Source: Actinosynnema sp. ALI-1.44 (lineage in GTDB: Bacteria > Actinomycetota > Actinomycetes > Mycobacteriales > Pseudonocardiaceae). Taken from it: a stretch of 64,000 nucleotides of DNA. Below the pieces are notes generated by a model, which was not told where the DNA came from, ran no database searches, and saw only the letters and a program-made list of their open reading frames with translations. Of this stretch, positions 36,630-59,077 are shown one piece after another. Position 1 is the first letter of the stretch. Every line of letters starts with the position of its first letter. Location of the stretch: the NCBI RefSeq assembly GCF_001984155.1, contig NZ_MTQO01000051.1, forward strand, positions 372,001 to 436,000, written 5' to 3'. Both the position numbers and the translations under genes were made by a program.

Positions 36630-37103
36630 ATGCAGACCTTCCTTCCGTTCGCCGACTTCCGTGCCACTGCGGCTGTGCTCGACGCACGGAGGTTGGGCAA
36701 ACAACGTGTCGAGACCATCCAGGTGCTTCGGGCGCTCACGGTTGTGGGCTACGGGTGGCGGCACCACCCAGCGGCGTCCATGTGGGCGGGCTACGAGGAG
36801 GCGCTCACCAGGTACGGACTGGACATCTGCGCGCAGTGGTGCGCGGCCGGTCGCCAGGACACCTGCGCCGCCACACTGCTGAACGATCTCCGGCACACCG
36901 TCGGCCTGGTCGACGTCCGCGGTCAGGAGGCCCTTGGCGCCGCCGACGAACTGCCGCCGTGGCTGGGGAACCCCGCGTTCCACGCCAGTCACCAGTCCGC
37001 GTTGGTCCGCAAGGATCCCGTGCACTACCGCCCGCATTTCCCTGGTATACCCGATGACCTGCCGTACGTGTGGCCACCGTCGGATCGCCCGCGCCGGATC
37101 TGA
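36630..37103 (+). CDS. MSMEG_6728-type protein (pyrimidine-dimer glycosylase/DUF-like)
   Basis: 157 residues. MQTFLPFADFRATAAVLDARRLGKQRVE matches the N-terminus of the actinobacterial MSMEG_6728 family, which is distantly related to T4 endonuclease V-like pyrimidine-dimer DNA glycosylases (LDxxRLGKQRVE is the shared core). The middle is W-rich (WRHHPAASMWAGYEEAL) and the C-terminus has the HASHQSALVRKDPVHYRPHFPG motif. It starts 28 bp after the SDR stop and may share its transcript. A DNA-repair role is suggested by the fold relationship only. Confidence 0.75.
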   Translation: MQTFLPFADFRATAAVLDARRLGKQRVETIQVLRALTVVGYGWRHHPAASMWAGYEEALTRYGLDICAQWCAAGRQDTCAATLLNDLRHTVGLVDVRGQEALGAADELPPWLGNPAFHASHQSALVRKDPVHYRPHFPGIPDDLPYVWPPSDRPRRI

Positions 37104-38270: not shown

Positions 38271-38488
38271 TCACGCGGTCACGTCGCCGCGATCGGCGGG
38301 CAGTTCTCCTGCCAGCACAAGCAGCAGTGTCGACTTCCCCGTGCCGTTCTCGCCGATGATCCCGAACAACTCACCGGGGCGCAGTTCGAACTCCACCCGC
38401 TGAGCACAGTGCGGTTGCGGAACGCCTTGTGCAGCTTCACCACCCGCAACGGACGCGGTTCACCGTGCACGATCACCTCCCGGACCAT
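38271..38488 (-). pseudogene. ABC transporter ATP-binding protein, truncated and frameshifted
   Basis: Starting 10 bases after the lanC stop, the frame reads [20 protein letters not shown] and [11 protein letters not shown]. Then one base appears to be missing and the family frame resumes as [23 protein letters not shown] (Walker A), ending [12 protein letters not shown] and a stop. Only ~75 residues of a normal ~230-300-residue ATPase are present; Q-loop, signature and Walker B are gone. Its position right after lanC suggests it was the exporter ATPase of a lanthipeptide locus. Confidence 0.75.
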
Positions 38489-38498
38489 GCCGTGGCGT

Positions 38499-39260
38499 TC
38501 AGGACAAAGCCAAGCAGCGCAACCAGTCCCGGTTCGCGCCGTTGACGGTCAACAAGGCGGCGAGCACACCGCACGCGCCTGTCAACAGGCTCATGTCGGA
38601 CTCGGCCAGCCGCCGCAGGTCGTCGAGATCGCTCCACAACCACTCGGCCAGCCGGTCGCGCAGCACTGCCGCCTGCGGAACCGCGGCGTGCCGGGCGAAG
38701 GCGTCGGCGACGAGCATTACCCCTGCGGCTCCGTGACAGACGCTGAAGGGGTGGACGTCGAGGTGGAAGCCTGGGTCGAAACCGTCGCACAACGTCCGGA
38801 AGGCGGCCACCGCGGTGTCGCACAACGCCTGTCCCGCGCTCAGACCCGCTCGTGCCATGGCCTGACCGGCTGTCCACAGTGCCCAACTGACACCGGGATT
38901 GCCGTAACACCAGGCCTGCCGGGGCGGGCAGTCGGTGCCGGTGTCGCATCGCGGCCACGTGGCGATGCCCTTGCGGTCGGTCACCACACCCGCCACACCG
39001 TGTGCCAGCCCGGTGACAATGCCTCCTTGTGTCCATGACGCCAGCGGATGCCCTTCGTGTGCGCCGATCCGCAACTTGTCTGGCTGGGAACCGAGGTCGG
39101 CGAGGTGCGCCACGAGCGCGGCGGTGTGCTGGTGGCGTCCTGGCGGGCCACCGACCGAATGCGCGAGCAACAGTCCGGCTGGGCCGCTGATCAGGTCGTA
39201 GTCGACGAACCCGACCGCTCGGCGCCGCCATCCCCGGACAGCGCCGAGAGACGCGACCAC
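38499..39260 (-). CDS. Lanthionine synthetase C-like cyclase (LanC), N-terminally clipped
   Basis: From the first GTG it is 253 residues; homology extends in-frame about 28 codons further ([17 protein letters not shown]) to ~39345, where a start codon is missing and the ispG fragment begins. The zinc ligands and catalytic residues are all present: AWCYGNPG (Cys), SVCHGAAGV (Cys-His), and the upstream GLAHGVAG His. Full LanC proteins are ~400 residues, so roughly the first third of the alpha/alpha barrel is lost. LanC enzymes add Cys thiols to dehydro-residues in precursor peptides. No precursor or LanB dehydratase is visible nearby, so it is probably an orphan pseudogene although its active site is conserved. 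Confidence 0.75.
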
Positions 39261-39339
39261 TCGGTCGGCCGCGGGGGTGACGGCCGGTTGGGCGCCGGTC
39301 AGCAGCCGGAGTCCGGCCGGGACCCCCGCCGTCCCACCG

Positions 39340-39435
39340 AAAAGCCCGGCGCCGGTCGTGATGGTGCACGCGTACCGGCAACTGGCGCAGCAGTGCGACT
39401 ACCCGCTGCACCTCGGTGTGACCGAGGCCGGTCCG
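39340..39435 (+). pseudogene. ispG: Fragment of ispG (GcpE), MEP isoprenoid pathway
   Basis: About 32 codons read [15 protein letters not shown] then [12 protein letters not shown], an almost perfect match to the central segment of 4-hydroxy-3-methylbut-2-enyl-diphosphate synthase. Nothing of IspG remains on either side: the bases before match lanC (opposite strand) and those after match the terpene synthase (opposite strand). An ispG paralogue beside terpene-cyclase genes is a known way to raise precursor supply, so this is a relic of such a gene. Confidence 0.75.
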
Positions 39436-39449
39436 CGTACGCATGCGGG

Positions 39450-40069
39450 CGAATCCCTCTCGGTCGCGGGCACTTCCTTGCCGTGGGCGATTTCCAGGAG
39501 CGCGATGGTAGGCGGCCCGCCCGCGCTGCCCAGTCGCATGGCGAGGTACTCGTCCACAGCGGGCATCCGGTCTCGGGCCCGGTTGCCGATCTGCCATGCC
39601 ACGCAGTACAGCCAATGCCGGTGCGCGTCGATGAAGCGCTGCACCTGGGTGGGCGTGGCGCAGGCCCGCATCCGCGTCATGATGTCGTGCAGGGCCTTGG
39701 TGAATGGTTCCGCCGGGGGAGTGGACGCCGTCATCGACCGGTGCAACTCGCCGCGATGGCCACGAACTTCGCGGGATCCGCGCTGAGCGGTCCACTGTCA
39801 CAACAGGCGTCGTCGAAGAGGAAGCCCCAGTAGACCCACAGCACCGCGACCAGTAGGCCGTCGACCGGAGCCGATGGCGAGAACCTCCCGTAGAACTCGG
39901 CACTGTTGGTCGCGATCGCCCGCATCCGGTCTCGCTCTGTCCGGCACAGTCCGGTCTGGTCGATCCATTCGATGGCCTGGCGCCGCACCTCGTCCACCGC
40001 CGGGTGAATGGCAGGCGGGATGGGGCAGTAGAACGGCGGTGCGCCGAAATCCAGATCTGTGGTCGTCAT
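39450..40069 (-). pseudogene. Class I terpene synthase, frameshifted and truncated
   Basis: The frame starting at 40069 gives a good bacterial terpene synthase N-terminus (FGAPPFYCPIPPAIHPAVDE) and the metal-binding acidic motif in FLFDDACCD. At about 39735-39745 the frame is lost, and the homology continues in another frame as [15 protein letters not shown] ... [21 protein letters not shown] and [11 protein letters not shown], ending near ATERDSPA. The second metal motif (NSE triad) and the C-terminal ~120 residues are missing. It cannot encode an active cyclase. Confidence 0.8.
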
Positions 40070-40501
40070 GGTGTCTCCCGTGAATCGGAACGAGTGACTT
40101 CACCCTAAGTGGACAGATCAGTCGCACGCATCGTGTTGCTCCAAAAGGAGAAAGTGCTGTGCGCCGATGCCGATGACCTGAGCGCCCGGTCACGGCCGGG
40201 CTCGCTCGGACAGGTGAGGCGGGTACCTCGTTCCGGGTGCGTCGGCGGCGTTCGCGACGCTCGCGGATTCCGATCCGGACACCATCACGCAAGGTGATGT
40301 TTGGATTCTGAATAGGACGACTCGGCTGCCCCGTGGAATTAACCCGGTTGCCGGGCCTGTGTGCCGTCCTGCTTCGTTGTTACGTTCGAGCGGTTCGCCG
40401 AATGTGCGGCGGCGCCGCCCGGATCACGGGCGGACTCGACACCAAGACCCCGGAGGGCGTCTCACCCTGCCCGGAAATCGCATCGAAGGAACGGTGATCG
40501 G
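40070..40501. other. Divergent intergenic region of the decayed terpenoid locus
   Basis: 432 bp between the terpene synthase remnant (minus) and the geranylgeranyl-reductase remnant (plus). It probably held their promoters. A small frame at 40154-40297 (47 codons, starting VLCADADDLSARSRPG) follows a good AAAAGGAG site, but matches no family I recognise and turns Arg-rich; I treat it as a possible truncated gene start only. Confidence 0.4.
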
Positions 40502-41130
40502 ATGACAACGGGCCGGTTCGGCGGACAGCTATGGGACGTGGTGGTCGTGGGTGCCGGTCCGGCCGGGGCCACCGCGGCCCGGGTGGCGGCGGAGGCCGGG
40601 TGTGACGTGTTGTTGCTGGAACGCGCCGCCGTGCCGCGGTACAAGACCTGTGGCGGCGGACTGATCGGGTGCTCGCAGGCGTTCCTGCCCGCCGGACTGG
40701 GGACCGCTGCCCGGCTCGTTCGGCTGGGTCTTCCCCAAGGACGGCGTCTGCACGGCTGGTGTGGTCGCTGCCCGCGGACAAGGCGACGCTACCAGGGCGT
40801 ACATGCGGGAGTTCCTGAAGCGCCATGGCTTTGCGAATCGCACGCCGCTGCACGACACGGGCGACAACATCCGCGCGCGGGCGGTCGGGACCTACACCCA
40901 GGTGTTGCGCTCCGATCTCGACACCGAGATGCGTGCGTCTCGCAGGATCATGGACGTCTTCACCAAAACGTCCCGGCGTGGTCCACACCGCGCTGACCGC
41001 CTGCCCGCCGGTGTGGCGCAGGGTCGACTCGTATCTCGGCGGTGACCCCACGATCCCCGCGCTGCTCGGCAACCCGGTCGCGCGCGTGGCGCTCAACGCG
41101 GTCGGACTCTTCATCTATGTCTACTCAGGA
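40502..41130 (+). pseudogene. Geranylgeranyl reductase family protein, internally deleted
   Basis: The start has GAAGGA upstream and an intact FAD-binding Rossmann motif ([39 protein letters not shown]). After ~65 codons about 150 residues are missing; the family resumes in another frame at [34 protein letters not shown] and [12 protein letters not shown]. It then jumps to [23 protein letters not shown], then shifts frame again to [20 protein letters not shown]. Total length is about half that of a functional enzyme (~390 residues). The original enzyme would have saturated a polyprenyl chain. It ends 23 bp before the PKS start. Confidence 0.8.
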
Positions 41131-41153: not shown

Positions 41154-44100
41154 ATGGACGAGGATTCGGCTACCGGCAGACAGACTCCGGTCGCGATCAT
41201 CGGAACGGCGTGCCGGGCTCCCGGCGGAGTGACCTCGGCGCAGGAGCTTTGGCAACTGCTTCTGGACCGGCGTGATGTCGTGCGCGGCAGCGACCCCGGC
41301 AGGCGGTGGTCCGACCGCGAGCGGGTGGTTCCCGCCGATCTGGCGAACGCGGCTGCCCTGCGCAGCGGTTCCTTCCTCGACGACATCGACCTGTTCGATC
41401 CGGGCTTCTTCGGCGTGCCCGCTCGTGAGGCGGCGAGTGTCGACCCGCAACACCGGTTGTTGCTGGAGACCATGTGGGAGACACTGGAAGACGCGGGGGT
41501 GCCGCCGCGTTCGCTGGCGGGGTCGCGGACCGGCGTGTTCATCGGCATCTCGGGGGCCGACTACGCCAGGCGGTTCAAGCTGGCGGACTTCGACGTCCAC
41601 CACGGCATCTCGGCGGTCGCGTCGGGCGCGCCGGGCCGGATCTCCTACATCCTCGACGTCAACGGGCCGTCGTTGGCGGTGGACGGCGCCTGCGCCTCGT
41701 CGCTGATGGCTGTGCACCTCGCATGTCGTTCCCTCCACAATGGAGAGTCTGATCTCGCGCTAGCGGGCGGTGTCACCGTGCAGCTGGAATGGGGTGGCCT
41801 CATCGGTTTCGCCAGGGCGGGGGCGTTGTCCACGCGTGGGCGGTGCGCGGCCTTCGACGAGAGCGCGGACGGTTTCGTGCGCGGGGAGGGCTGCGGGATG
41901 GTGGCGTTGAAGCGGTTGACCGACGCCCAGCGCGACGGTGACCACGTGTTGGCGGTGATCACCGGGACGGCCATCAACCACGCGGGACGGGTGCAGGGCA
42001 TCACCCAACCATCTCGCGGTGCGCAGCACGCCGTCATCATGGCGGCCATGCGCGCGGCAGGAGTCACGCCCCACGATGTCGGGTATGTGGAGGCGCACGG
42101 CAGCGGTACCCCAGTGGGGGATCCGATCGAGTTCGCCGCGTTAACCGACGCGTACGGCAAATCCGGTGGTCCGTGCGTGCTGGGCTCGCTCAAGACCAAC
42201 ATCGGCCACCCGGAGAGCGCGGCCGGTGTGCTCGGGCTGATCAAGGCCGCGCTGGCGGTCCAGCGGGGCACCATCCCGGCGAATCTGCACTTCACCCGGT
42301 GGAATCCCGTGATCGACACCGACGGGACCCGGTTCGTCGTACCCACCGCCACCATGCCGTGGGACAACTCCGGCCGCCCCCGTCGCGCAGGTGTGTCCGC
42401 GTTCGGTGTCACAGGGGCGAACGCCCACGCCATCGTCGAACAGGCGCCGCAGACGCTGGCACCATCCCGGCGCCCATGGGCTTTCAGCGATCAGGCGATG
42501 GTGTTCCCGGTGTCGGCCGCGTCCACTGGCGGACTGGCTGCCACGGCGCGCCGCCTGGCCAGTCACGTGGAGGCCACACGTGACCCCGCGGCCGATGTGG
42601 CGCGCACCCTTGCCGCGCACCGCAGTCATCTGTCCACACGAGCCTGTGTCGTGGCATCCGGCCGTGCAGAACTGGTGAGCGCTCTGCGCTCGGTGGCCGA
42701 CCGGCAGGACCACCCGGACGTCGTCACCGGACCGACAACCGGTCCCGGCATGCCGGTGTGGGTGTTCTCCGGGCACGGCTCGCAATGGCCCGGCATGGCG
42801 CGCGACCTCCTCGACCAGGAACCCGCGTTCACCCGCATGATCGACCGGCTCGATGCCGTCGCGTCGGACGCGGGCGTGCCCGTGCGGCGACTGCTGGCGT
42901 CCGGCGAGAACCTGGAGCGGATGGACGTGGTCCAGCCGGTGATCTTCGCGGTGCAGACGGCGCTCGCGCGGATGTGGCGGGACTGGGGCCTGCGTCCGGC
43001 CGCGGTGGTGGGTCATTCGATGGGGGAGGCCGCGGCCGCCGTCGCGGCGGGCATGCTGACACCCGAGGACGGCATGCGGATCACGCTGGCCCGTTCATCG
43101 CTGCTGCAACGGGTCGCGGGCGGCTGCATGGCGGTCGTCGCGCTCCCGGTCGAGCAGGTCGACGCCGAGATCGCCGACGTCGACGGCGTGTCCGTCGCCG
43201 TGGTGACAGCACCGGCGTCCACGGTCGTCGCTGGTGACGGCCCGGTTGTGGCGGACCTACTGCGCCGCTGGCAGGACCGCGGCGTGTTCTGCAAGCAGAT
43301 CGCCGTGGTGGTCGCCGCGCACTCGCCCCAGGTCGACCCGATCCTGACCGAGATCGCCGACCGGACGTCGTGGCTGAAGGGGACACCGGCGACGACGCCG
43401 TTCTACTCCACCGCGGGGGATCCGCGCGAGACCGTGACCTTCGACAACAAGTACTGGGCTCGGAACCTGCGCGCGCCGGTGCGCTTCGACCGGGCGTGCC
43501 GGGCGCTGATCGAGGACGGGCACCGCGTCTTCCTGGAGCTGTCGCCGCACCCGTTGCTGACTCAGGCCGTGGAGGAGACCGCGTCGGCGATGGGAGTGCC
43601 GGTGGTGACCACAGGCTCGCTGACCCGCGACCAGAACGGGCGTGCGGCGGTGTGCCGGGCGGCCGCCGCGCTGCACGTGGTCGGCGCGCCGGTGGATCTC
43701 GTCGCCGTCAACGGCGGTGGAACACGGGTGGTGTTGCCGCCCACGGCGTTCGACCGGTCCAGCTACTGGCAAGAGCCCGGGTACGGGCCACGGGACGCGA
43801 CGGCGCACATGTGGCTGGGCGAGTGCTCGGCCGTGCCGGATGCCGACGCCGAGGACGGCACGCGGCACGTATGGCCCGCTGATCTGGGCACCGACCGTGT
43901 CGAATGGCTGGCGCAGCACACCATGCGTGGCATCCCGTTGGTGCCCGGCGCCGCACATGTCGAGTTGATCGTGGCCGCCTCCGCAGCGGTCCTGGGCTGT
44001 GCGCTGGACGAGATCCGCCTGACCGACGTGCGGTTCGAGCGGATGTTGCCGCTGGCCGCCGCCGTGCCCGTCCAGGTCTCGGCCACGCGGAGCGGTGGTC

Positions 44101-47100
44101 GGCTGGCGGTCGAGGTCATCCAGCACACCGGCAGCGGATGGGACCGAGCGGCGGCAGCGACGGCCGCCCGGTTCGAAGGACCGGTCGACCTCAACCCGGC
44201 ACTACACCCACCTGAGAACGTCGCGGCGCCTGACGAGTTGTACGCGTCGTTCCGCCGGATCGGACTGGACACCGGCCCGGCCTTCCACTCGATCACCGCC
44301 ACCACCGACGACGGGATCACCCGGGTCGAGGTGCCCGCCGACGCGGCGATCCGGACCAGCGCACCCCACGTGCACCCGGTGATGTTCGACGGGTGGGTGT
44401 TGTCCGTCGCGGCCTGCCTGGTCCGTGACGATGCCCTCGATGACAGCGATGAGCCGTGGTTGCCCACCGGGATCGGCAAGGTGGTGCTGCCCGCCGAGCC
44501 CGGCCGCGTCGCGTGGGTTCGCTCCGAAGCGAGACGCGAGGGGGCCGCCGTAACCGGGAGCGCCGCCCTCTACGACGAGGCCGGGCAATGGGTCGGCGCG
44601 CTCTACGACGTCACCCTTATCCGCAACACCCGGACCATGAACACCAATACGCGACTCGACCACCGGTTGTTCGAGATCTCCTTGCGCCAGCTTCCCTTGC
44701 CGGAACAGCCGACCACAGGCACAACCGGCGAATGGGTCGTGGTCAGGGAACCAGGCGACGATGACGGTGTCGCCGAGCGCGTGGCGGCGGCGCTGTCCAA
44801 GGCTGGCACGCGAGTCACGGTCCACACTGATCTCTCGGCTGTTCCGGCGTGCGCAGGCGCGGTCGTGTGGTGCGCGACGGGAGACCTGGACGACTTGGAC
44901 CGGGTCACCAAGGTGACCACGCTACTCCGTGCCGCGGGACAACCGTCCCGGACGTGGTTGCTCAGCCAGAACGCGAGGCCAGTGCTCGACGGCGATAGGA
45001 CCAACCCGGGAGTGTGCGCGCTGCGCGGGCTGCTGCGCGTGGCCGCCATCGAACAACCCGAGTCGGCGATGACCTGGGTCGACAGCGGCGGTGGCACAGC
45101 CGGGGACGTGGCCGATATCGTCGCGGAGCTGACCGCAGGCACTGCCGAGACGGAGGTGGCCTGGCGGGCGGGGCAGCGCTACGTGGCCAGGATGACCCGG
45201 GCGCCACTGGCGAGCAGGCCGCCGCGGTCGGCCCGCGAGATCGACGTGGTCGTCGGCGAGGACGAGTTCGTCCTGCGGCCCCACCCGGACGGCGGCCTGG
45301 ACCAACTGCACCTGGTCGCGACCGATCAGCCGCCGCCCGTGCCGGGACCCGGCCAGGTGCTGGTGCGCCCGGAAGCGTGCACGGTGCACTTCCGCGAGAT
45401 CCTGATCGCGCTGGGCATCTACCCGACCGACGACGGGACACCGCCCGCGCTCGGCTCGGACGCCGCAGGCGTGGTCGTGGCGGTCGGTGACGGCGTCGAC
45501 GACCTGCGACCTGGTGACAGGGTCACCACCGTGATCACCGACGGTAGCGGGTCGATGGCCGCGCACTGCCTGGTCCGAGCCGATCTGACCGCACGCGTTC
45601 CCGACGGCTTCGCCGCGGTGGACATCGTCCCCTCAGTGCTGACGTACATCACTGCGTGGCATTCGCTGCACGACCTCGCACGGCTGCGGGCGGGCGAGAC
45701 TGTGCTGGTGCACTCTGCGGCCGGGGGCACCGGACTCGCCGCGATCGAGGTCGCCCGGCTGCTCGGGGCCGAGGTCATCGGCACCGCCGGGACCGAGGCC
45801 AAGCGCAGGCACCTGCGCGAGCACGGTGTGCGGCACGTGTTCGACTCCCGCAGCCTGGATTTCGCCGAACAGGTGTCGGCGGCCACCGGCGGACGCGGTG
45901 TCGACGTCGTGCTCAACTCGCTGACCGGACCGGCCATGCGAGCGTCGCTGGATCTGCTCGCCCCGGCTGGACGCTTCATCGAGATCGGCAAACGCGACCT
46001 GTACGACGGCGCACGCATGGACCTCGGGAAGTTCCGGCACGGCAACACCTACACCGCCCTGGACTTGGTGCTCACCGCGAACGAGCAACCAGCGGTGTTC
46101 CGAGCGGCGATGCGACGAGTGCTGGCTGAGATCGCGGACGGCAGGCTGCCCTTGTTGCCCAGCGTGGTGGTTCCGGTGACCGATGCGTCGGAGGCGTTCA
46201 AGCAGTTGGCTTCCGGCGACCTCATCGGCCGTGTGACCCTCACTTTCCCACCGGTCGGACAGCGGATCCGCGTGCACGCACCCACTCCGGGGCAGGTGGT
46301 ACGCGAAGGAGCCGCCTACATCGTCACCGGCGGCACGCGGGGGTTGGGCCTCGAAGCAGCGCGGTGGCTGGCCGAATCCGGTGCAGGTCGCGTCGTTCTC
46401 GGAGGCCGCAGTGAACTCACGCCTGACGCCGCCGATGTGCTCGACGCTGTCGCGGCAACCGGGTGCGCGGTGGAGGTTGTGCGGGGTGACGTGACTGACC
46501 CGGACACGGCCCGGCGCTTGGTCTCGGCGGCAGGCGCGAACCTGCGGGGCATCCTGCACACCGCCGTGGTGCTCGACGACGCACCGCTGAACGCCATGAG
46601 CCCGGACAAGCTGGCCCGTGCGTGGCACCCGAAGGTCACCGGCCTGCTGAACCTCCACCACGCCGTGCAAGACATCCCACTGGACTGGCTTGTCGTCTTC
46701 TCCTCCATGTCGGCCATGCTGGGCAACGCCGGACAGGCCAACTACGCCGCAGCCGGTTCGTGGGTGGACGCCTTCGCGCGATGGCGTCACGACCAGGGAC
46801 TGGCCACCCTGTCGGTGGACTGGGGCGCCTGGGGAGAAGCGGGCCGTGCGACGGACTTCGCCGCGCGCGGGTTCGACACGATCGCGACGGCCGACGGGTT
46901 CGCCGCGCTGACCGCGCTGCTGCGCCACCAACGGGTGAATGTCGGCGTGTTCGACTACCAACCCGAGTTGCTGTTCCGGGCCTTCCCGCATGCGCTGGAC
47001 CACCCGCTGCTGGCGGACCTGCGTACCGGTGAGGCCGTCGACCGCGCAGCGACATCGACGCTCGAGTTGCGTCTCGAACAACCAGGACCGGCACGGGCCA

Positions 47101-47327
47101 GCATGGTGCGGGACGCGGTGGTACACAGCCTCGCGGCGCTGCTCGGTGCCCAGCCCTCAACCGTCGCGGCACACGCGAAGTTCACCGACCTCGGACTGGA
47201 CTCGCTGCTCGCCGTCGCGCTCACCAGGAAGCTGCACGTCGACCTCGGCATCGCGGTCACTCCGGCGGACGTCTGGGCGCACCCGTCACCGGCCGAACTG
47301 GCCAAGCACATCGATTCGTCGCTGTGA
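41154..47327 (+). CDS. Single-module fully reducing type I polyketide synthase (KS-AT-DH-ER-KR-ACP)
   Basis: 2057 residues, with AAAGGA before the ATG. KS ~12-440: catalytic Cys180 in VDGACASS, His in EAHGSGTPVGD and KTNIGHPES. AT ~565-880: Ser622 in GHSMGEA; the specificity region reads RMDVVQ upstream and AAHS downstream, closer to methylmalonyl-type than malonyl-type, but not decisive. DH ~900-1110: His922 in HTMRGIPLVP and Asp1079. ER ~1385-1700 with HSAAGGTG at 1520-1527. KR ~1720-1900: TGGTRGLG, Ser1851, Tyr1864, and LDD (B-type). ACP with Ser2017 in DLGLDSLLAV. No thioesterase or docking domain. Order and size equal mycocerosic acid synthase, so iterative chain elongation is likely. 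Leu330 is a TTA codon. Confidence 0.93.
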   Translation: MDEDSATGRQTPVAIIGTACRAPGGVTSAQELWQLLLDRRDVVRGSDPGRRWSDRERVVPADLANAAALRSGSFLDDIDLFDPGFFGVPAREAASVDPQHRLLLETMWETLEDAGVPPRSLAGSRTGVFIGISGADYARRFKLADFDVHHGISAVASGAPGRISYILDVNGPSLAVDGACASSLMAVHLACRSLHNGESDLALAGGVTVQLEWGGLIGFARAGALSTRGRCAAFDESADGFVRGEGCGMVALKRLTDAQRDGDHVLAVITGTAINHAGRVQGITQPSRGAQHAVIMAAMRAAGVTPHDVGYVEAHGSGTPVGDPIEFAALTDAYGKSGGPCVLGSLKTNIGHPESAAGVLGLIKAALAVQRGTIPANLHFTRWNPVIDTDGTRFVVPTATMPWDNSGRPRRAGVSAFGVTGANAHAIVEQAPQTLAPSRRPWAFSDQAMVFPVSAASTGGLAATARRLASHVEATRDPAADVARTLAAHRSHLSTRACVVASGRAELVSALRSVADRQDHPDVVTGPTTGPGMPVWVFSGHGSQWPGMARDLLDQEPAFTRMIDRLDAVASDAGVPVRRLLASGENLERMDVVQPVIFAVQTALARMWRDWGLRPAAVVGHSMGEAAAAVAAGMLTPEDGMRITLARSSLLQRVAGGCMAVVALPVEQVDAEIADVDGVSVAVVTAPASTVVAGDGPVVADLLRRWQDRGVFCKQIAVVVAAHSPQVDPILTEIADRTSWLKGTPATTPFYSTAGDPRETVTFDNKYWARNLRAPVRFDRACRALIEDGHRVFLELSPHPLLTQAVEETASAMGVPVVTTGSLTRDQNGRAAVCRAAAALHVVGAPVDLVAVNGGGTRVVLPPTAFDRSSYWQEPGYGPRDATAHMWLGECSAVPDADAEDGTRHVWPADLGTDRVEWLAQHTMRGIPLVPGAAHVELIVAASAAVLGCALDEIRLTDVRFERMLPLAAAVPVQVSATRSGGRLAVEVIQHTGSGWDRAAAATAARFEGPVDLNPALHPPENVAAPDELYASFRRIGLDTGPAFHSITATTDDGITRVEVPADAAIRTSAPHVHPVMFDGWVLSVAACLVRDDALDDSDEPWLPTGIGKVVLPAEPGRVAWVRSEARREGAAVTGSAALYDEAGQWVGALYDVTLIRNTRTMNTNTRLDHRLFEISLRQLPLPEQPTTGTTGEWVVVREPGDDDGVAERVAAALSKAGTRVTVHTDLSAVPACAGAVVWCATGDLDDLDRVTKVTTLLRAAGQPSRTWLLSQNARPVLDGDRTNPGVCALRGLLRVAAIEQPESAMTWVDSGGGTAGDVADIVAELTAGTAETEVAWRAGQRYVARMTRAPLASRPPRSAREIDVVVGEDEFVLRPHPDGGLDQLHLVATDQPPPVPGPGQVLVRPEACTVHFREILIALGIYPTDDGTPPALGSDAAGVVVAVGDGVDDLRPGDRVTTVITDGSGSMAAHCLVRADLTARVPDGFAAVDIVPSVLTYITAWHSLHDLARLRAGETVLVHSAAGGTGLAAIEVARLLGAEVIGTAGTEAKRRHLREHGVRHVFDSRSLDFAEQVSAATGGRGVDVVLNSLTGPAMRASLDLLAPAGRFIEIGKRDLYDGARMDLGKFRHGNTYTALDLVLTANEQPAVFRAAMRRVLAEIADGRLPLLPSVVVPVTDASEAFKQLASGDLIGRVTLTFPPVGQRIRVHAPTPGQVVREGAAYIVTGGTRGLGLEAARWLAESGAGRVVLGGRSELTPDAADVLDAVAATGCAVEVVRGDVTDPDTARRLVSAAGANLRGILHTAVVLDDAPLNAMSPDKLARAWHPKVTGLLNLHHAVQDIPLDWLVVFSSMSAMLGNAGQANYAAAGSWVDAFARWRHDQGLATLSVDWGAWGEAGRATDFAARGFDTIATADGFAALTALLRHQRVNVGVFDYQPELLFRAFPHALDHPLLADLRTGEAVDRAATSTLELRLEQPGPARASMVRDAVVHSLAALLGAQPSTVAAHAKFTDLGLDSLLAVALTRKLHVDLGIAVTPADVWAHPSPAELAKHIDSSL

Positions 47328-58399: not shown

Positions 58400-59077
58400 A
58401 TGACGACCTCACCCCGCATCGTCATCGTCGGCGGGGGACCAGCCGGCTTGATGTGCGCGCGTGTCCTGCAGAGGCAAGGCATCCGGCCGGTGGTCTACGA
58501 CGCGGGCACCACCGTGCGGGGCCAGGCCGGGACTGGCCGGGATCGCCACCGCAGCGCCCTGGCCGAGTTCATTCCCGCCGATGGCGACCAGATCGACCGC
58601 GGCCAGCTGCGGATCCTGCTCCACCAGCCGCTGAAGCCCGGTACAGTCCACTGGGGACACGAACTCGTCCACGTCGCCCCACTCGGCGGAGGGGTGCACC
58701 GACTGGAGTTCGCCAACGGCGTCAGCGCGGAAGCCGATCTCGTCATCGGTGCCGACGGTGCGTGGTCAACGGTCCGCCCCCTGCTCACCGACGCGGTGCA
58801 GCGCGGCTTCTGGACCCCACCCGCCCCGCTGACCTGGGACCACGTCCCCGGTGCCACCCTGATCGGCGACGCCGCCCACCTGACGGGACCCTTCAGTGGC
58901 CACGGCATGAGTCGCGCGATGCTCGACGGCGCGGAACTCGCGCACGCCATCACCGAGGAGGACAATCTCGACGACGCGGTCGCGCGCTACGAGGCAGCGA
59001 TGTTCCCGCGATCCGGGGAACTCGCCGTGAGGACGTGTACCCCATCCCAGCGCCGATCTTCGCGTGCTCCCCGGTGA
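58400..59077 (+). pseudogene. FAD-dependent monooxygenase, internally deleted
   Basis: The start (MTTSPRIVIVGGGPAGLMCARVLQRQG) is a normal Rossmann FAD motif of the TetX/salicylate-hydroxylase class. Then ~50 residues are missing; PADGDQIDRGQLRILLHQPL and EADLVIGADGAWSTVRPLL are in place. The next ~110 residues, including the substrate barrel, are gone before GATLIGDAAHLTGPFSGHGM (second FAD motif). The C-terminus is out of frame after FPRSGELA. It is 225 residues instead of ~390, so probably inactive despite an open frame. Likely the former target of the TetR/SRPBCC unit. Confidence 0.75.

Follow-up and report, generated by a model that had tools for sequence, protein, structure and literature searches.

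The window analysed here is a stretch of 64,000 nucleotides from Actinosynnema sp. ALI-1.44, located within a 614-kb contig of an 11.7-Mb draft genome in 54 contigs. Packed into 2.9 kb of it (38271-41112) are remnants of an ABC ATPase, a LanC cyclase, ispG, a terpene synthase (TS) and a geranylgeranyl reductase-family enzyme (GGR), with an intact PKS beside them (Table 1). An earlier note, made from the letters alone, had described these five damaged genes and their intact neighbour; all five proved to be real homologies, and the PKS is read in one whole frame.

Table 1. Positions in the window of the gene remnants, of the features between them and of the adjoining PKS.
Feature	Positions	Strand	Description
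ABC ATPase remnant	38271..38488	-	first ~63 codons; frame change near 38397; permease and rest gone
LanC remnant	38499..39353	-	~62 N-terminal and 28-32 internal residues missing; CYG and CHG motifs kept
ispG remnant	39352..39437	+	~29 codons from the middle of a ~380-codon gene; DNA homology
TS remnant	39441..40069	-	~210 of 355 residues; one base missing near 39748; C-terminal third gone
Divergent intergenic region	40070..40501	.	between TS (-) and GGR (+)
GGR-family reductase remnant	40502..41112	+	two internal deletions and one base gained
Junction of the 395-bp GGR deletion	40694..40701	+	8 bp common to both flanking alignments; imperfect repeat
Intact one-module PKS	41154..47327	+	KS, AT, DH, ER, KR, ACP; 2057 aa

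The ABC ATPase remnant matches ABC_tran (Pfam, E 4.4e-11). It had been read as cut after Walker A, and indeed Walker A is present and the homology stops at codon 63 of a 282-aa relative. The LanC remnant matches LANC_like (Pfam, E 2.3e-15) and has an open frame of more than 250 codons, with an in-frame internal gap at about 38978. It was thought to lack its N-terminal third, but this size is wrong; as the LanC homology continues in frame as far as 39353, only ~62 of the 395 residues are gone from the N-terminus, besides the ~30 internal ones. The window therefore does not hold the whole LanC cyclase of a working class I lanthipeptide cluster. LanB of Actinophytocola gossypii found no match in this genome in a search that was run without a positive control, and no second LanC was found in it at E 1e-15, a threshold at which the remnant matches 21 of 297 family genomes (this genome included).

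The ispG piece, ~86 bp in length, matches GcpE/IspG (Pfam, E 1.2e-9). The LanC and ispG homologies meet at 39352-39353, and the gap between the ispG and TS homologies is at most about 8 bases. The piece is 88% identical to an ispG of another genome, G002. The possibility that it is a recent copy from its own genome was rejected because it is only 85% and 83% identical to the two ispG genes present there.

For the TS remnant, the C-terminal piece matches Terpene_syn_C_2 (Pfam, E 8.3e-23), while the N-terminal piece has no match in Pfam and matches the selinadiene-synthase-type models of NCBIfam (E 6.3e-12). The reported frameshift corresponds to one base missing relative to the genus-mate G003. 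The reported absence of the NSE motif was also confirmed, as the sequence ends at about residue 210-214 of 355 (at 39445 by DNA homology, 39441 by protein), before the N-D-L-x-S-x-x-K-E of its relatives and hence before the second of the two metal-binding motifs of a class I terpene synthase. No other TS was detected in this genome at E 1e-60, a cut-off that also misses the broken copy of the window; at this cut-off the family is present in 57 of 297 family genomes. In G003 the TS is intact and stands alone. The left end of the divergent intergenic region (to 40121) is also conserved ahead of that intact TS, and its right part (from 40285 on) ahead of the PKS in G005, another genome of the genus.

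The GGR remnant matches the family TIGR02032 (NCBIfam, E 3.6e-18). Compared with G295, it has lost 395 bp (frame-shifting) and 171 bp (in frame) and has gained one base near 40966. An internal loss had been noted before and is real, but its size is ~190 of 393 residues rather than ~150. At the junction of the 395-bp deletion the window reads GGACTGGG, which forms a short imperfect repeat.

GGR had also been taken as the partner of ispG and TS. It goes with the PKS instead. Part of the PKS, used as a query, matched 17 of 297 genomes at E <= 1e-108 (this genome, G005 and 15 others), and GGR lies directly ahead of the PKS in all 11 of those 15 relatives that were examined at length, G244 included. 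In G126, G265 and G244, the GGR-PKS pair comes after TS, prenyl synthase, ABC and permease genes. G276, whose PKS is broken, has the same four genes behind the pair. G057 and G260 have prenyl synthase, ABC and permease ahead of it and no TS in that stretch; in A. gossypii (G037), ~50 kb separate GGR-PKS from a LanBAC-TS cluster. At the level of whole genomes, TS (E 1e-60) was found in 14 of 15 GGR-PKS genomes, all except G260, versus 43 of 280 others (Fisher p 3e-10, with 295 family genomes and kinship ignored). The expectation within genera was 4.3 versus the 14 observed (p 1e-8), with kinship below the genus uncorrected, genus sizes counted by hand from match listings, and 11 genomes absent from the PKS listing. 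G000 and G005 were left out of the co-occurrence test; G005, whose PKS is accompanied by neither GGR nor TS (at 1e-60), would bring the count to 14 of 16. Since GGR-PKS and TS co-occur even when their genes are far apart, a shared product is a testable idea.

Other relatives join TS to ispG. IspG adjoins TS in 5 of 30 TS loci fetched with 1.5-kb flanks (G231 and four genomes of another genus), substantiating the claim that it belongs beside a TS of this family. G231 carries a tight DXS-IspG-TS operon opposite prenyl synthase, ABC and permease genes, although this permease may be broken because its match falls in two overlapping frames. The orientation also differs there, since IspG and TS point the same way and not toward each other. 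In the window, ispG has the orientation that DXS has in A. gossypii, that is, toward a convergent TS.

The lanthipeptide genes were traced by a contig profile search with an alignment of five LanB proteins, yielding 25 loci; in the flank survey of the TS and LanB loci, tblastn rows below 50% identity for the PKS and below 40% for ABC were dropped. Within the fetched flanks, DXS adjoins LanB in four of the 25 (A. gossypii, A. oryzae, A. fastidiosa and Actinokineospora spheciospongiae), and the prenyl synthase, ABC and permease of the TS-cluster family are present in two, those of A. gossypii and A. spheciospongiae. TS is whole in the former, and only its last ~90 residues are left in the latter. 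The A. gossypii cluster, in which all genes have open frames, reads TS, DXS (on the other strand), prenyl synthase, a 76-residue secreted-looking protein, the C-terminal part of LanB, its N-terminal part, LanA, LanC, ABC and permease. Written from the other end, its strands are permease(-)-ABC(-)-LanC(-)-LanA-LanB(-)-prenyl synthase(-)-DXS(+)-TS(-), which matches the ABC(-)-LanC(-)-ispG(+)-TS(-) of the window; the cluster has no ispG. Its LanA, recognised by inspecting the sequence that separates LanB from LanC, is MQPTMELNELEELVSHLDTRISETEMTSEAQTPSLLLCSFGCGNHSWYWHC. Related peptides occupy the same position in A. spheciospongiae, A. oryzae, A. fastidiosa, a Saccharothrix MAG and Amycolatopsis tucumanensis, and four peptides from this position had no significant match when tried against Pfam. 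With LanA, LanB and LanC together, the A. gossypii locus is predicted from its sequence to be a class I lanthipeptide cluster. The idea of a lanthipeptide module made up of lanC and an exporter stands insofar as ABC adjoins LanC in A. gossypii, but the ABC exporter also goes with the terpene module.

Several side observations were made at these loci. In A. oryzae and A. fastidiosa, DXS lies beside LanBAC (L117:6907-8766 and L118:6561-8591) with no TS or prenyl synthase of the TS-cluster family in the fetched flanks, and this arrangement could be either the remains of the same composite cluster or a separate link between DXS and the peptide. A small secreted-looking protein with two cysteines, which has no match in Pfam or NCBIfam, recurs beside the TS family (L105:13643-13873, minus strand, the 76-aa protein of A. 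gossypii; also L154, L155 and L174), including at places without lanthipeptide genes. Near the A. gossypii cluster there is also a 70% match to the Pyr_excise gene of the window (36630-37103), but it lies on the opposite relative strand; this weak resemblance was not used.

Whole modules have been lost elsewhere in the cluster family: GGR in G005, the PKS in G276, DXS in G287 and TS in A. spheciospongiae. In G005 (L034:9121-9475), nearly all of GGR was lost independently, leaving ~20 codons followed by an intact PKS, so that the old upstream region of GGR is now directly ahead of the PKS. The PKS of G276 (L096:8175-10902) has frame changes and lacks roughly residues 815-1959, and GGR, TS, prenyl synthase, ABC and permease there still match over nearly their full length. 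In G287 (L175:10255-10359), 35 codons of DXS remain between TS and prenyl synthase, a parallel to the ispG remnant of the window. The genes on the left flank (SDR, Pyr_excise and a carboxylate-amine ligase) and on the right flank are mostly at separate places where they were found in seven other genomes of the genus, and the window's next gene after the PKS is found in G005 ~14 kb away, on the other side of the PKS. The neighbourhood of the site is shown to be fluid. However, the turnover hotspot proposed earlier was not shown, because the flanking genes are scattered in the genus and what recurs is module loss within the cluster family. Elsewhere in the window (58400-59077, plus strand), a 225-aa FAD-monooxygenase-like frame matches Pfam over the first ~30 positions only; by eye, its N-terminal part jumps to a late motif as if ~150 residues had been lost in frame, possibly another recent internal deletion.

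Estimates of dN/dS (Nei-Gojobori) were 0.25 for the TS pieces against G003, 0.16 for the GGR pieces pooled against G295 (0.07, 0.12 and 0.43 singly) and 0.38 for the LanC remnant against A. gossypii. Intact comparison pairs gave 0.38 for TS, 0.30 for GGR and 0.55 for LanC, and the PKS gave 0.20 against G005; all values are rough, as synonymous divergence is high (0.4-1.0). As constraint at the protein level is still visible in the remnants (0.16-0.38), the genes look as if they had been under selection for most of the divergence and had broken late.

Taken together, these comparisons suggest that the 2.9-kb stretch is very probably the deletion-collapsed relic of a composite terpene-lanthipeptide biosynthetic cluster. 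At its core, the earlier proposal of a combined terpenoid/lanthipeptide locus that deletions have collapsed is supported in that the fragments are homologous to intact genes of relatives and each module is intact in some of them. The intact ispG-TS-GGR-lanC-ABC cluster that was expected in a relative was found module by module; no single relative among those found has every module contiguous, and these show only overlapping combinations. The relic is a genuine fossil, because its crushed genes stand intact in the combined terpene and lanthipeptide clusters of related bacteria.

The ancestral order would have been, from left to right, permease(-), ABC(-), LanC(-), LanA and LanB(-), probably prenyl synthase(-) and DXS(+), then IspG(+), TS(-), GGR(+) and PKS(+). 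One deletion, of several kilobases, would have run from about codon 62 of LanC to the middle of ispG; a second would have joined mid-ispG to about codon 214 of TS; and a third would have taken out the permease together with most of the ABC ATPase. GGR, TS, LanC and ABC would also have suffered smaller deletions and single-base changes, and the PKS alone would have remained under selection. If the ancestor resembled A. gossypii with dxs-ispG in place of dxs, the first two deletions give the LanC-ispG-TS succession; at least two deletions would then be multi-kilobase, which contradicts the notion of a collapse by small deletions. Repair would have been of the end-joining type, a route that is available since the genome has three Ku matches, although its actual role here is an inference. 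The tight junctions, with at most about 8 unassigned bases, speak for this history. Against a one-cluster ancestor are the following: its prenyl synthase and DXS left no trace in the window; TS is alone in G003; and A. gossypii has no ispG and carries GGR-PKS ~50 kb off.

Some of these points would also suit a different origin, in which pieces from unrelated loci were joined by insertion and repair, the ispG piece being end-joining filler from elsewhere. The shortness of that piece, the solitary TS of G003, the scattered flanking genes and the Ku matches agree with such a patchwork. We nevertheless regard it as quite unlikely, since the ispG piece is closer to the gene of G002 than to either gene of its own genome, and ispG, TS, LanC and ABC are neighbours in relatives, in matching order. 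It is very improbable that the genes are whole and their breaks are errors of assembly or sequencing. The genome is a draft, and three lesions come down to a single base, but the majority are either gene-to-gene fusions or losses of tens to hundreds of bases, inside a 614-kb contig, and the single-contig genome G005 has its own, different loss of GGR ahead of the same PKS. Even less credible is continued use of the LanC remnant (or of another piece), for instance as a protein acting alone. The CYG and CHG motifs retained in LanC, its long open frame and a dN/dS below 1 would allow this; yet the remnant lacks the N-terminus and ~30 internal residues, no LanB partner was matched in the genome (by the search without positive control), and a low dN/dS is equally compatible with recent loss.

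Considered as a composite-cluster relic, the locus resembles several known systems. Class I lanthipeptide clusters contain LanA, LanB, LanC and an exporter, and in the relatives a LanB made up of two proteins and a LanC accordingly flank a Cys-containing precursor peptide; in A. gossypii and A. spheciospongiae, however, these genes sit between the prenyl synthase and the ABC pair that other genomes carry with TS and without LanBAC, and the window retains only part of LanC. As for selinadiene-synthase-type sesquiterpene clusters, TS is nearest to NF041565 (selina-4(15),7(11)-diene synthase), far below its cut-off, and it has MEP-pathway genes beside it, as some actinobacterial terpenoid clusters do; the difference lies in a conserved prenyl synthase-ABC-permease partner and the optional LanBAC or GGR-PKS additions. 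The relic itself belongs to a familiar category. Decayed actinobacterial biosynthetic clusters and pseudogenes leave broken remnants of secondary-metabolite genes like those of the window, but here intact counterparts of each module were found and the order is explicable by few deletions. Finally, a passage of PMC12466573 mentions 'lanthipeptide-terpene' regions named by genome-mining software, e.g. in Streptomyces venezuelae, with both gene kinds within one called region. The label as it appears in that passage marks neighbourhood, whereas here prenyl synthase and ABC enclose the peptide genes on one strand.

The gene combination was not described in the titles and abstract openings of the open-licence PMC literature searched, which does not imply absence from print, and the fossil points to a little-studied kind of natural-product cluster. 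In the living relatives, DXS/IspG would increase the flux of precursor, from which prenyl synthase and TS would form a terpene; the LanA peptide would be cyclised by LanB/LanC, and export of the product would fall to the ABC pair. A bolder proposal, which we consider unlikely, is that of an unrecognised modular family whose terpene module (TS, prenyl synthase, DXS/IspG and ABC) would combine with a lanthipeptide or GGR-PKS module to yield one putative joined product, e.g. a lanthipeptide bearing a terpenoid or else a terpenyl polyketide lipid; on that view the present genome would be a natural knock-out that keeps only the PKS. Fossil clusters are usually too damaged to interpret. The one in this window led to living relatives predicted by its content, among them a terpene locus with a lanthipeptide precursor nested inside it, and to a cluster family in which whole modules are combined and lost.
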